64,000 nt of DNA from positions 1 to 64,000 of the forward strand of contig JAURXZ010000016.1 in the NCBI GenBank assembly GCA_030654175.1. Direction: 5' to 3'. The stretch is from Bacteroidia bacterium (GTDB lineage: Bacteria; Bacteroidota; Bacteroidia; 2-12-FULL-35-15). This document shows positions 11,566 to 60,144 of the stretch, piece by piece. A program made the position numbers and the translations under genes. Numbering within the stretch: position 1 is the stretch's first letter; each line of letters opens with the position of its first letter. Below the pieces are notes generated by a model, which did not search any database, was not told the DNA's origin, and saw only the letters and a program-made list of their open reading frames with translations.

Positions 11566-11731
11566 TCATTTGGGCGTTTCCCTTTTTCTCCCCCCCTTCC
11601 CCTCTCCATTTGGAGAGGGGAAGGGGGGGGAGAAAGGGCCGGGCTTGGAATTTATCCTGAGCCCTGTCGAAGGGCTTCAATCTTCCCTTCCAAGTATGGA
11701 AGGGAAGGATTTCCGTTGCAATCCCTAACGC
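11566..11731 (+). repeat. Dispersed double-hairpin repeat, copy A
   Basis: In order: left arm TCATTTGGGCGTTTC (11566-11580); a near-perfect long C-rich/G-rich hairpin (about 11580-11638); the central arm start CCGGGCTT, interrupted by a nested short repeat (11647-11672); CAATC; a second hairpin CCCTTCCA/TGGAAGGG; and right arm GGATTTCCGTTGCAATCCC ending TAACGC. The arms match copies at 37890, 41094 and 59884, but the hairpin stems do not. Confidence 0.8.
11647..11672 (+). repeat. Nested short repeat inside copy A
   Basis: GAATTTATCCTGAGCC plus TGTCGAAG interrupts the central arm of repeat copy A. A near-identical segment interrupts the right arm of copy D (59964-59987), and a reverse-oriented relative lies at 11913-11936. 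The core CTTCGACAGGCTC type is widespread in bacterial intergenic DNA. Confidence 0.6.
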
Positions 11732-37746: not shown

Positions 37747-37889
37747 AATACAACCTACATTTAGCTTCCTTTTGTTTTGTAAATTTGTTAACCCGTTTTT
37801 CAACATATCAAAACTGCTTTATGATTGGACCTGATGAATTTTGACTGAAATTTTTAGAAAAAATAATCATGTCTTTAACGGTTAATCAT

Positions 37890-38002
37890 GCGTTAGGGAT
37901 TGCAGCGTAAATCCTTCCCTATCGCCAATTGGGCGGTAGGGAAGATTGAAGCGGAAAGCCCGGTCACTTTCTTTTTTCAAAGAAAGTGAAACGCCCAAAT
38001 GA
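37890..38002 (-). repeat. Dispersed double-hairpin repeat, copy B
   Basis: This is the reverse orientation of copy A, and the cleanest copy. On the minus strand: TCATTTGGGCGTTT; a hairpin TCACTTTC/GAAAGTGA; the central arm GGGCTTTCCGCTTCAATC; a hairpin on TTCCCTA/TAGGGAA; and GGATTTACGCTGCAATCCC ending TAACGC. The hairpins differ entirely from those of copies A, C and D. Its end overlaps the apparent GTG start of the next gene. Confidence 0.85.
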
Positions 38003-38069
38003 ATTAGATGATAAATTATTCCCTGCAGAACATATATCAAATATTAACAAAAGCAAAACTGAAACTTCA

Positions 38070-39470
38070 TTGAATAATAACTCTCCTACATCATTAATCA
38101 AGCAAAATTTACTTTATTTAAACGTATTATTTGCATTTTTTATTGTTTCGTGCAATAGCAGCAAACTTCCGGAAGTAATCACCTATTCAGAGCATATTGC
38201 ACCTATCATTTATAAGAACTGCACTTCCTGCCATCGTCCCGGGGAGGCTGGTCCCTTTAATTTATTAACTTTTCAAGATGCCGTGTCGCGTTCAAATCTG
38301 ATCAAATTTGTGACTCAAACACGTTATATGCCTCCCTGGCCTGCCGATGCAACTTATTCACACTTTGTTGATGAAAAAGTTTTAAATGAAGGTGAAATTG
38401 CAATGATCGGAACATGGGTTGACAATGGTTGTCCGGTTGGAGATTCTACAAAAGCAGCTAAACTACCGGATTTTCCCGTTGGTTCACAATTAGGAAAACC
38501 TGATCTCATAATTAAATTAAGAGATATTTATAAAATAAAAGGAAATGGGAAAGACTTATTTTTATTGATGCGAGTGCCTTATCAGATACCAAATGATACA
38601 TTTATAAGCGCTATAGAAATTGTTCCTGATAACCGTAAACTCGTCCACCATGTTAATGCACAACTATTAAGCTATGATTTTGATAAAAAGAAAGATGTGT
38701 TTAAAGGTAATACTGTTGTTGACTTAGAAACAATACCGGATAAATTAAAAGCTTATGTAGCAATTGATTTACCTAACGATGATGGACTAACCTATCCAAC
38801 ACTTACACAATCGGTTGCTAATTATTTACCGGGTGTTACGCCTCCTATATATCCCAATGGAATTGGTGGTTTTAAAATGACTCGTAAAGGCGCTGTTTTT
38901 TTGAAAGATATACATTATGGGCCTTCAAGAGTGGATACGAGTGATCAAACCACGTTTAATGTGTTTTACGCAAAACAAGCTCCAAGTCGTCCTACACAAG
39001 AGTTTCAGATGGGAACATTTGGTATTTCACCAACAGTGCCCGCTTTAGTGATTCCTCCGGACACGGTAATGACATTTCATTCGGATTACACTCTTCCTTT
39101 TGATATTTCTATCCTGACAATAAATCCACACATGCATTTGTTGGGGAAGCAATTTTTAGCATTTGCTATAACTCAACAAGGCGACACGATCCCCTTGATA
39201 CGAATTAACAAATGGGATTTTCGCTGGCAATATTTTTATACATATAAAAAAATGTTAAAAATTCCACGTGGCGCAACTATCCATATTGAAGGGGTATATG
39301 ATAATACCCGTCAAAACCCAAACAATCCATTTAGCCCTCCACGCTTAGTTGCCGAAAGAGAAGGTAGCATGCGCACAAGTGATGAAATGTTTCAATTTAT
39401 TATAACTTACTTGCCTTATCGGCTGGGGGATGAAAATATAAGCCTTGAAAATTCCGTTATAAGAAAGTAA
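38070..39470 (+). CDS. Cytochrome c/copper type II monooxygenase-like lipoprotein
   Basis: This is a predicted outer-envelope lipoprotein. From a TTG at 38070 it has a 27-residue signal with hydrophobic core NLLYLNVLFAFFIVSC and Cys28 as lipobox cysteine. An upstream GTG (37986) lies inside repeat B and would give an unnaturally long leader, so I prefer the TTG, with doubt. A haem c site CTSCH (about residue 51-55) with 'RYMPPWPAD' is followed by a domain with 'HHVNAQLL' and 'INPHMHLLGKQF', the His-x-His pattern of copper type II ascorbate-dependent monooxygenases (PHM-like). The oxidised substrate is unknown. Confidence 0.75.
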   Translation: MNNNSPTSLIKQNLLYLNVLFAFFIVSCNSSKLPEVITYSEHIAPIIYKNCTSCHRPGEAGPFNLLTFQDAVSRSNLIKFVTQTRYMPPWPADATYSHFVDEKVLNEGEIAMIGTWVDNGCPVGDSTKAAKLPDFPVGSQLGKPDLIIKLRDIYKIKGNGKDLFLLMRVPYQIPNDTFISAIEIVPDNRKLVHHVNAQLLSYDFDKKKDVFKGNTVVDLETIPDKLKAYVAIDLPNDDGLTYPTLTQSVANYLPGVTPPIYPNGIGGFKMTRKGAVFLKDIHYGPSRVDTSDQTTFNVFYAKQAPSRPTQEFQMGTFGISPTVPALVIPPDTVMTFHSDYTLPFDISILTINPHMHLLGKQFLAFAITQQGDTIPLIRINKWDFRWQYFYTYKKMLKIPRGATIHIEGVYDNTRQNPNNPFSPPRLVAEREGSMRTSDEMFQFIITYLPYRLGDENISLENSVIRK

Positions 39471-39783
39471 TGAATATTGACCCCTTTGAAATTTTTTTTT
39501 GACACGAATTGCACGATTTTTTTTTGAAAATATAATTGAGAATAAGAATATTAAATTAGTGAAATTAGTATCAAATAGAGTTTCATGGGAGGGCAGAGTG
39601 GACTAAATATTGGGAAACTCCCACAAAAAACACAAATTTTTCTTTTGCTCATACCATTCAACAAACTTTTACGCGAGAAGGATCTTTATTTATTTAACAT
39701 TTTTAAACACTTTCCAAGGAGCGGAAACTTTGAATTCAAAAATAGTTTCCTTAGTTTTGTTATGAATTAAAAAATCTAAATAA
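39471..39783. other. Intergenic gap with promoter
   Basis: This 313-bp gap between the monooxygenase and metallophosphoesterase genes contains T-rich sequence with GACACGAATTGCACGA near 39500, resembling short dispersed repeats. A good promoter sits at its right end (39729-39759). A 61-codon open frame here (39585-39770) has no family features and I do not call it a gene. Confidence 0.5.
39729..39759 (+). promoter_or_regulatory. Bacteroidota-type promoter for the metallophosphoesterase gene
   Basis: TTTG at 39729-39732, a 19-bp spacer, then TAGTTTTG at 39752-39759. This matches the Bacteroidota TTTG-N19-TAnnTTTG consensus exactly and lies 24 bp before the ATG at 39784. It is the best promoter match in the window. 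Confidence 0.75.
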
Positions 39784-41037
39784 ATGCCATTAAGTATCCG
39801 CGTTTTCATTATAGGCTTGTTATTACTGCTTGTTGATTGGTATTTTTATCAAGCAATTATCACTGTATTAAAAGAAAGTTCAGCATTTAGAAAATCTGCT
39901 TCTGCCTATATTTACTGGGGATTTACAATCTTTACGTTTTTGCTTTTTTTAACCCCGTCTTTCATTTCCCTAGCCGATTGGCCTAAATACATTCGTGTGT
40001 ATTTATTTGCATTAGTAATAATGGTGGCTGTTTCAAAAATAATTGGTTCGTTGTTTCTGGCAACTGACGATATAATTCGTTTGTTTCGTTGGATCGGGAG
40101 CTATTTTACTACTAAAACAGAAGTTGTAGTTGAAAATGCACATAGTATTTCCCGTTTGAAATTTTTAAGTCAAATTGCTCTTGGAATGACAGCTTTACCA
40201 CTTGCCGGCTTCATATACGGAATGGTGAGAGGAGCCTTCGATTATAAGGTACACCCGATTAAAGTAACTTTGCCCAATCTTCCGTCTTCCTTTAATGGCT
40301 TGAAAATAATACAAATTTCAGATATTCATTCCGGAAGTTTTGTTTCTACTGCTCATTTAGAAGAAGCTGTAAAAATTATTGAGAGAGAAAAACCTGATCT
40401 TATATTTTTTACCGGAGATCTGGTGAATGACCGGGCATCTGAAACCGATCTGTATATTGAAGTATTGAGTAAAATTAAGGCGCCCCTTGGTGTTTTCAGC
40501 ACTCTTGGCAATCATGATTATGGTGATTATGTTACCTGGGGCAGCCCGGAAGCAAAGGCCGAAAATTTAAATAATTTAAAAAATGTGCATGCACAAGTAG
40601 GTTGGAAATTATTAATGAACGAACATATTCCTATCAAAATAGGAGAAGATGAAATAGCCATAATTGGTATTGAAAATTGGGGGGGGAGTTTTCATTTTCC
40701 AAAATATGGGGATTTGAAAAAAGCCCATTCAGGGACTGAAAAATATCCTGTTAAATTGCTGCTATCACATGATCCTTCTCATTGGGATCTACAAGTTAAA
40801 GAGGATTACAAAGACATTGATATTACCTTCAGCGGCCATACTCATGGCGGTCAGTTTGGCATTGAAATACCAGGGTTTAGGTGGAGTCCTTCACAGTATG
40901 CCTATAAACAATGGGCGGGTTTATATTCTCACCAGGATCAACATTTATACGTAAACCGTGGTCTCGGCTTTTTGGGGTATCCGGGACGAGTAGGTATATC
41001 GCCTGAAATAACTGTTATGGAGCTTTACAATTCTTAA
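39784..41037 (+). CDS. Membrane-anchored metallophosphoesterase (YkuE/YaeI-like)
   Basis: This 417-residue protein has four N-terminal hydrophobic segments (about residues 5-25, 38-58, 70-90 and 140-160), then a calcineurin-like phosphoesterase domain. All metal-ligand blocks are present: IQISDIHSGSF, FFTGDLVND, TLGNHDYGDY and SGHTHGGQFG. It should hydrolyse a phosphoester in or at the membrane (relatives cleave UDP-diacylglucosamine or lipids); the true substrate is unknown. A consensus promoter lies just upstream. Confidence 0.88.
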   Translation: MPLSIRVFIIGLLLLLVDWYFYQAIITVLKESSAFRKSASAYIYWGFTIFTFLLFLTPSFISLADWPKYIRVYLFALVIMVAVSKIIGSLFLATDDIIRLFRWIGSYFTTKTEVVVENAHSISRLKFLSQIALGMTALPLAGFIYGMVRGAFDYKVHPIKVTLPNLPSSFNGLKIIQISDIHSGSFVSTAHLEEAVKIIEREKPDLIFFTGDLVNDRASETDLYIEVLSKIKAPLGVFSTLGNHDYGDYVTWGSPEAKAENLNNLKNVHAQVGWKLLMNEHIPIKIGEDEIAIIGIENWGGSFHFPKYGDLKKAHSGTEKYPVKLLLSHDPSHWDLQVKEDYKDIDITFSGHTHGGQFGIEIPGFRWSPSQYAYKQWAGLYSHQDQHLYVNRGLGFLGYPGRVGISPEITVMELYNS

Positions 41038-41093
41038 ATTTTTGAATTGCAAAATTATTGGTAAAAGCATAATATTTGTAACTGTTCAGGTTA

Positions 41094-41181
41094 TTAGGGC
41101 ATGCCCCTGCGGGTCGGGCTTTCCGCTTCAATCTTCTCCGAAGAAAAATCGGAGAAGGATTTCCGCTGCAATCCCTCATGC
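41094..41181 (+). repeat. Dispersed double-hairpin repeat, copy C
   Basis: The left arm reads TTAGGGCATGCCCCTGCGGG with only a short hairpin, unlike copies A, B and D. The central arm GGGCTTTCCGCTTCAATC is exact. The second hairpin is TTCTCCGA with TCGGAGAA, and the right arm GGATTTCCGCTGCAATCCC ends CATGC instead of TAACGC. The gap before the DNA repair gene contains nothing else recognisable. Confidence 0.8.
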
Positions 41182-41282
41182 AAACAATATGAAATTACGG
41201 GCCTTTCAGCGAAGAAGAAAACGATTGTTTAAATAAATGAAAGACTGAAATTCTAAAAATAAACAAACCAAATTATTGTTCA

Positions 41283-59883: not shown

Positions 59884-60001
59884 TCATTGGGGCGCTCCCC
59901 TTCCTAAAAAAGAAGGGGAAGGCTTTCCGTTTCAATCTTTTCTAAAAAGAAAAGGATTTACGCAGAATTTATCCAGAGCCAGTCGAAGCAATCCCTAACG
60001 T
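59884..60001 (+). repeat. Dispersed double-hairpin repeat, copy D
   Basis: The left arm is TCATTGGGGCG, followed by hairpin TCCCCTTC/GAAGGGGA, the central arm AGGCTTTCCGTTTCAATC, hairpin TTTTCT/AGAAAA, and the right arm GGATTTACGC. A nested repeat (59964-59987) then interrupts the arm before GCAATCCCTAACG. Orientation is as in copy A. Confidence 0.8.
59964..59987 (+). repeat. Nested short repeat inside copy D
   Basis: AGAATTTATCCAGAGCC followed by AGTCGAAG splits the right arm of copy D, where copy B has only a T. It closely matches the insert in copy A. Confidence 0.6.
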
Positions 60002-60144
60002 ACATATTCAATGAACGTGGATTTACCAGCGTTTATCAGGCTCCAACCAAAATTACTAATTCATCTAAAGTCATTACCATTTTACAATAAAAATATCATA
60101 CCAGTTGAAATGAAATTATTTTCAAATAAATTAATTAGATAATG

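Follow-up and report, generated by a model that had tools for sequence, protein, structure and literature searches.

Flavo-1 (Rfam RF01705) is a catalogued repeat family of the Bacteroidota that was first described by Weinberg et al. 2010 (PMC2864571) and is filed by Rfam as an sRNA gene; Rfam and the published papers still treat it as a small RNA. In the transcriptome of Flavobacterium psychrophilum, Flavo-1 matches lie in both sense and antisense, many of them outside transcribed regions, some coinciding with 5' transcribed regions, and they gave no clue to a function (PMC9723704). A literature search that covered few subscription papers found no publication handling Flavo-1 as a mobile repeat. 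A second described system is that of the RAYT transposases, of which subclass 2.6 is restricted to Bacteroidetes and flanked by atypical structures that are copied elsewhere in the genome (PMC6006769).

The window analyzed here is a stretch of 64,000 nucleotides (contig JAURXZ010000016.1, positions 1 to 64,000) from the 5.1-Mb genome of an uncultured member of the Bacteroidota whose closest public relatives are environmental MAGs. An earlier note on this stretch had described four copies of a dispersed repeat with conserved arms and variable hairpins, for which it could recall no named family. All four copies are present where it placed them, and they are members of Flavo-1, so that the family does have a name: in an Rfam scan the copies at 41094 and 37890 score 66.4 and 53.3 bits against a gathering cutoff of 42 bits. 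The same note held that a match to a described repeat family would remove the novelty, which is the case for the family itself; what is new relative to Rfam is the extended structure, comprising the closing stem P1 and the second hairpin HP2, and the exchange of hairpins between copies.

Results

The full unit is a three-way junction of about 110 nt, made up of the closing stem P1, the stem P2 formed by two conserved arms, a hairpin HP1 carried on P2, and a second hairpin HP2; the Rfam model, by comparison, spans P2 and HP1 only. Read on the strand GGGATTG...GCCC, its parts follow in the order leader TTTCATTGATAATGCT, P1 GCGTT, A, arm A GGGATTGCAGCGTAAATCC, HP1, arm B GATTGAAGCGGAAAGCCC, G, HP2, P1' AACGC and end CCAAATGAA, the leader being only weakly conserved in the copy profiles. 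The elements of the window and their parts are as follows.

37890 to 38002, plus strand: complete Flavo-1 element (RF01705 match of 53.3 bits at 37880-37969; three-way junction in RNA and DNA folds)
37890 to 37894, plus strand: 5' strand of P1, GCGTT, pairing with 37990-37994 (P1 covaries from GCGTT/AACGC to GCGTG/CACGC)
37896 to 37914, plus strand: arm A, the 5' strand of P2, GGGATTGCAGCGTAAATCC (arm parse, covariation, mismatch recount)
37915 to 37943, plus strand: hairpin HP1, TTCCCTATCGCCAATTGGGCGGTAGGGAA, where the sister species G017 has TTTCCTACCATTCTTCAGAGAAGAACGGTAGGAAA
37944 to 37961, plus strand: arm B, the 3' strand of P2, GATTGAAGCGGAAAGCCC (arm search, parse, covariation)
37964 to 37989, plus strand: hairpin HP2, TCACTTTCTTT..AAAGAAAGTGA (fold; outside the Rfam model)
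37990 to 37994, plus strand: 3' strand of P1, AACGC, followed by the element end CCCAAATGA (flank profile, fold)
41094 to 41183, minus strand: Flavo-1 element of the GCRTGA / CAYGCC closing-stem subfamily, with a short HP2 (RF01705 match of 66.4 bits; DNA fold gives the junction)
41134 to 41156, minus strand: HP1 of copy 41094, TTCTCCGATTTTTCTTCGGAGAA (sequence parse)
11566 to 11731, minus strand: Flavo-1 element with a captured palindrome in HP2 and a dispersed insert in arm B (27 bits at 11675-11715, below the cutoff)
11580 to 11638, minus strand: HP2 of copy 11566, built of a separate CCTCTCC..GGAGAGG palindrome family (palindrome search)
11647 to 11673, no strand assigned: inserted dispersed sequence GAATTTATCCTGAGCCCTGTCGAAGG within arm B (like inserts in the arms of L108, L139 and L020)
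11683 to 11706, minus strand: HP1 of copy 11566, TTCCCTTCCATACTTGGAAGGGAA (sequence inspection)
59884 to 60003, minus strand: degenerate Flavo-1 element with a dispersed insert in arm A (sequence, fold)
59938 to 59953, minus strand: HP1 of copy 59884, of the majority class TTTTCT..AGAAAA (sequence inspection)

A third arm named in the earlier note, TCATTTGGGCGTTT, corresponds to the distal half of P1 plus the element end; it had been called absent from copy 41094, which in fact carries a divergent, still-pairing version (GGGCATGC / GCATGA). This copy has syntenic elements in G017 (L236) and in a public MAG (L221). In copies 11566 and 59884 one arm is damaged by a dispersed sequence, GAATTTATCC(T/A)GAGCC..GTCGAAG, and because of these arm insertions the former falls below the RF01705 cutoff and the latter gives no RF01705 match at E values up to 0.5. 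A dispersed sequence, CCTTCGACA..GCTCAGGATAAATT, has entered Flavo-1 arms near one common point, after GGGATT or its partner, at window positions 11647-11673 and 59963-59988 and in L020, L108, L139 and L308. The motif ACTGTTCAG (window 41080-41089) recurs beside Flavo-1 copies and appears as CTGAACAGT on the opposite side in G017 L264. MicroRNA matches at 11568-11650 were set aside as chance, caused by the long palindrome.

The genome-wide arm search that the earlier note had proposed returned about 140 sites. The arm GGGCTTTCCGCTTCAATC has 30 exact sites in the genome and 139 with up to two mismatches, the second arm has 140 with up to three, and reversed-pattern controls of both searches gave none, an abundance far above chance. 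RF01705 itself matches at least 134 times, with 130 matches above the gathering cutoff and nearly all spanning the full 76-position model; this count is a lower bound because 150 of 1322 candidates were scored. From 143 candidate copies that were extracted, 119 could be fully parsed.

P1 is a short closing stem, GCGTT/AACGC. The P2 arms pair in register as GGG/CCC, A·G, TT/AA, G·A, a variable pair, A·G, GC/GC, G·A, a variable pair, A·G and AATC/GATT, which places five mismatches, A·G or G·A, at spacings of 2-3 bp. The strict parse presupposes some of those bases, so the mismatches were recounted on 133 loosely detected copies, 130-133 of which have them. For copy 37890, an RNA fold yields a three-way junction of P1, HP1 and HP2 (z -5.8); with DNA parameters, P2 is closed as well, around the single mismatches (z -8.1), and under these parameters the complementary strand folds less stably (-25.5 vs -32.1 kcal/mol). 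In some genus-mates (L165, L167, L173, L177 and others) a second type of Flavo-1 occurs whose outer P2 pairs are flipped (CCGATTG..AAAGCGG) and whose 3' module differs.

Compensatory changes support the pairing of P1, P2 and HP1. The central P2 pair (pair 9) is GC in 70 copies, AT in 42 and GT in 4, the next (pair 10) is CG in 110 and TA in 6, and the inner pair of P1 is TA in 112 and GC in 6. In HP1, pairing is 94-100% Watson-Crick, and four of the six outer pairs have 19-33 double-change cells. All of this covariation exceeds that of shuffled pairing, in shuffles that leave the relatedness of the copies in place. The earlier claim that both strands of a stem change together is borne out here and in orthologues of the sister species, as is its suggestion of conserved folding; its description of the stems as unrelated and free of sequence does not hold. 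About five classes recur among the HP1 stems, led by TTTTCTGTTTAGAAAA in 36 of the 119 parsed copies and including TTCTCCGATTTTTATCGGAGAA, TTTTTGTTCTTCACAAAAA and TTCCCTTCCGC..GCGGAAGGGAA, and the outer 6 nt of HP1 are 96% pyrimidine on the 5' side and 97% purine on the 3' side; the 5' side of HP2 is 90% pyrimidine. Arm type is independent of HP1 class (p 0.44) and of HP2 class (p 0.51), and the parts of the element behave as if they reassort. G·T pairs outnumber A·C pairs by 18:4 in HP1 and the arms (p 0.004), and by 20:7 when HP2 is added (p 0.02). This asymmetry suggests that the folding entity is this strand rather than double-stranded DNA generally, with moderate support since related stems are non-independent.

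Hairpins turn over in place between sister species, and both HP1 and HP2 differ as paired units among copies as well as among orthologous loci. G017, whose proteins at the window locus are 95% identical and which has 38 Flavo-1 matches, shares about 20 loci with common flanks, mostly 84-96% identical; its assembly is 83% complete and fragmented into 790 contigs, and the changes seen between orthologues are unpolarized. Elements are the same in both species at E023, E049 and L029/L279. At E032, E086 and L084/L265 the non-conserved leader is recognizably the same and HP1 is wholly different (e.g., TTCCCTGCCGCCAATAGGCGGTAGGGAA vs TTTTCTGTTTAGAAAA), and the HP1 class also differs at E037 and E082. 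In copy 37890 compensatory changes preserve the outer HP1 stem and the inner one has been replaced, and at E032, E060, E086 and E126 the two arms change jointly (AACG/AGTG vs AGCG/AGCG). At E093 (L128 vs L271) the flanks match and the element between them is inverted, and at E074 our genome has a palindrome where the HP2 loop stands in G017. For two copies of our genome, E062 and E118, the syntenic site in G017 lacks an element, and the exact element ends are unreadable there because the flanking intergenic DNA differs too. An unselected G017 sample spanned three sites of our genome, one filled and two lacking the element, the latter not being clean empty sites.

Palindromes of foreign origin contribute to this turnover; their capture supports the earlier idea of hairpin replacement, as does the exchange of HP1 as a whole paired unit at syntenic loci. 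The palindrome ACCTCACCCC..CCTCTCC-NNNN-GGAGAGG..GGGGTGAGGT (window 11580-11638; L377-L391) is an independent dispersed repeat with 22 sites in the genome, and it has entered HP2 in several copies: 8 of the 22 sites lie inside Flavo-1 HP2, which makes up about 0.08% of the genome. Sites outside Flavo-1 lie near the 3' ends of genes.

The abundance of Flavo-1 is patchy, from 0 to 67 matches in 35 genus-mates, many of which have none, to the 134 found here, and it is absent from 14 of 14 control genomes. Copies are almost all intergenic, 131 of 133 lying clear of any ORF of at least 90 aa, and by simple ORF calling convergent sites exceed divergent ones (36:17). The annotated plasmid and phage collections gave no Flavo-1 match, and carriage by either was rejected on that result; four IMG/VR contigs have the arm, two of them with a complete-looking element. 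Among neighboring copies separated by less than 4 kb, 19 pairs are oppositely oriented and 3 share one orientation, where random placement gives about 6 of each, a bias that disappears beyond 4 kb. The p-value for our genome is optimistic because the pattern was noticed during the analysis; other genomes are the fairer test, and among the matches listed for them the ratio is 15:5 (pooled p 7e-5). Inverted neighbors enclose one to four genes, as at window 37880-41186, L333-L349 and G004 C203, C356, C177, C19 and C396. A composite transposon was rejected as the source of these pairs: the gene enclosed by the window pair is present throughout the genus, and regions inside other pairs keep part of their synteny in the sister species, so these regions have not recently moved. 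Local duplication was likewise rejected, since the neighbors checked by inspection have different hairpin classes.

A search for target-site duplication gave no direct repeat at a fixed offset that clearly exceeded shuffled pairing, and no two copies are identical over their full length. The inverted ends TTTCATT..AAATGAA and GCGTT..AACGC are short, only the latter being strongly conserved in the flank profile.

Discussion

We consider that Flavo-1 in this genome is probably not an RNA gene but a DNA repeat of about 110 bp, intergenic, non-autonomous and proliferating, that is recognized by its fold. A trans-acting protein would recognize the P1/P2 scaffold, most likely in single-stranded DNA that becomes exposed during replication, and would copy or move the element by transposition. 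The hairpin tips would serve as paired spacers only; because they need only to pair, they would drift with compensation and be replaced, whether by ectopic conversion, template switching or the insertion of palindromes. It is conceivable, and we propose it tentatively, that these copies represent an uncharacterized structure-guided class of mobile DNA, in which an enzyme recognizes a mismatch-zipper three-way junction. The terminal hairpins would then be modules that can be exchanged and that were captured from palindromes elsewhere, and inverted pairs of copies would build up around short blocks of genes.

The established assignment would instead make the copies structured regulatory RNAs, either sRNAs or cis elements, whose transcript binds a partner and whose copies form a regulon. 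The wobble-pair asymmetry favoring one folded strand, the junction in the RNA fold of the window copy, and the F. psychrophilum matches at 5' transcribed regions (PMC9723704) are all in keeping with such RNAs, which we nevertheless think rather improbable given that a single genus holds anywhere from 0 to over 130 copies, that F. psychrophilum matches occur in sense and antisense with many outside transcribed regions (PMC9723704), and that one element has opposite orientations at the same site in the two sister species. Moreover, orientation relative to genes in tandem contexts is unbiased (40:38), which, judged from gene positions, argues against an sRNA-gene function for most copies. A transcription terminator or leader was rejected on the same absence of preference.

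As the protein that moves the copies in the reading we favor, Y1/RAYT transposases were the prime suspect because subclass 2.6, confined to Bacteroidetes, is flanked by atypical structures that are copied elsewhere (PMC6006769). Flavo-1 also resembles a mismatched single-stranded hairpin substrate, and the failure to find target-site duplication fits such an agent. Against this, none of the 20 Y1/RAYT loci that we scanned in six genomes has a Flavo-1 copy within its flanks of about 1.4 kb, and the only locus to hold one (L354) has it at a distance of 2.4 kb from its Y1 gene, in line with chance at this copy density. Copy number does not track these genes either: no Y1 match was found in five Flavo-1 genomes with 27, 8, 8, 5 and 3 copies; the high-copy genome G044 has no Y1 match. 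The RAYT of our genome in L353 has a hairpin structure of its own that is unrelated to Flavo-1, and we regard action of subclass 2.6 on Flavo-1 as quite unlikely. As carriers, IS200-type Y1 transposases were rejected because they do not lie beside copies and do not follow copy number. That RAYT-like gene, with its nested inverted repeat (GTAGGCGCTAAGCTG..) at L353:1183-1362 beside a Y1 gene at 1556-1768, is probably a true REP-RAYT pair. It is very unlikely that these are old fixed repeats whose hairpins change only through template switching (quasi-palindrome correction), free of selection and mobility, since this would produce the perfect stems, compensated changes and orthologous tip replacement that we observe but should also erase the five P2 mismatches, and copy number varies widely between close relatives.

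If Flavo-1 is a proliferating structured repeat, this would explain why no function was found for it and would correct its sRNA annotations. Orthologous copies with swapped, compensated hairpins form a natural series on how perfect palindromes arise, move and persist in genomes.

Among known systems, integron attC sites fold as a single strand in which the arms are conserved, mismatches are retained and the hairpin tips vary. Flavo-1 has the same features on its folded strand; its copies differ in being dispersed singly in intergenic DNA rather than in gene-cassette arrays, and attC core sites are not known to stand in the order seen in Flavo-1. An attC array of same-orientation sites was rejected, neighbors within 4 kb being mostly inverted (19:3). 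Like MITEs, Flavo-1 is small, non-coding and intergenic; its inverted ends are short, with strong conservation of GCGTT..AACGC only, and neither a target-site duplication nor a parent transposon was found for it. The REP/REPIN elements of RAYTs share with it a short structured intergenic form, high copy number, patchy occurrence among relatives, a mismatched stem and no obvious target duplication, whereas Flavo-1 is much longer, forms a three-way junction and has no RAYT gene beside its copies; in the flank profile its foot is GCGTTA/AACGCC, with no GTAG, in place of the REP/RAYT tetranucleotide GT[AG]G. With Flavo-1 RF01705 the repeats share the sequence family itself, in 130 copies above the cutoff, and to the Rfam model our analysis adds P1 and HP2, the behavior of a dispersed repeat, and hairpins that are exchanged.
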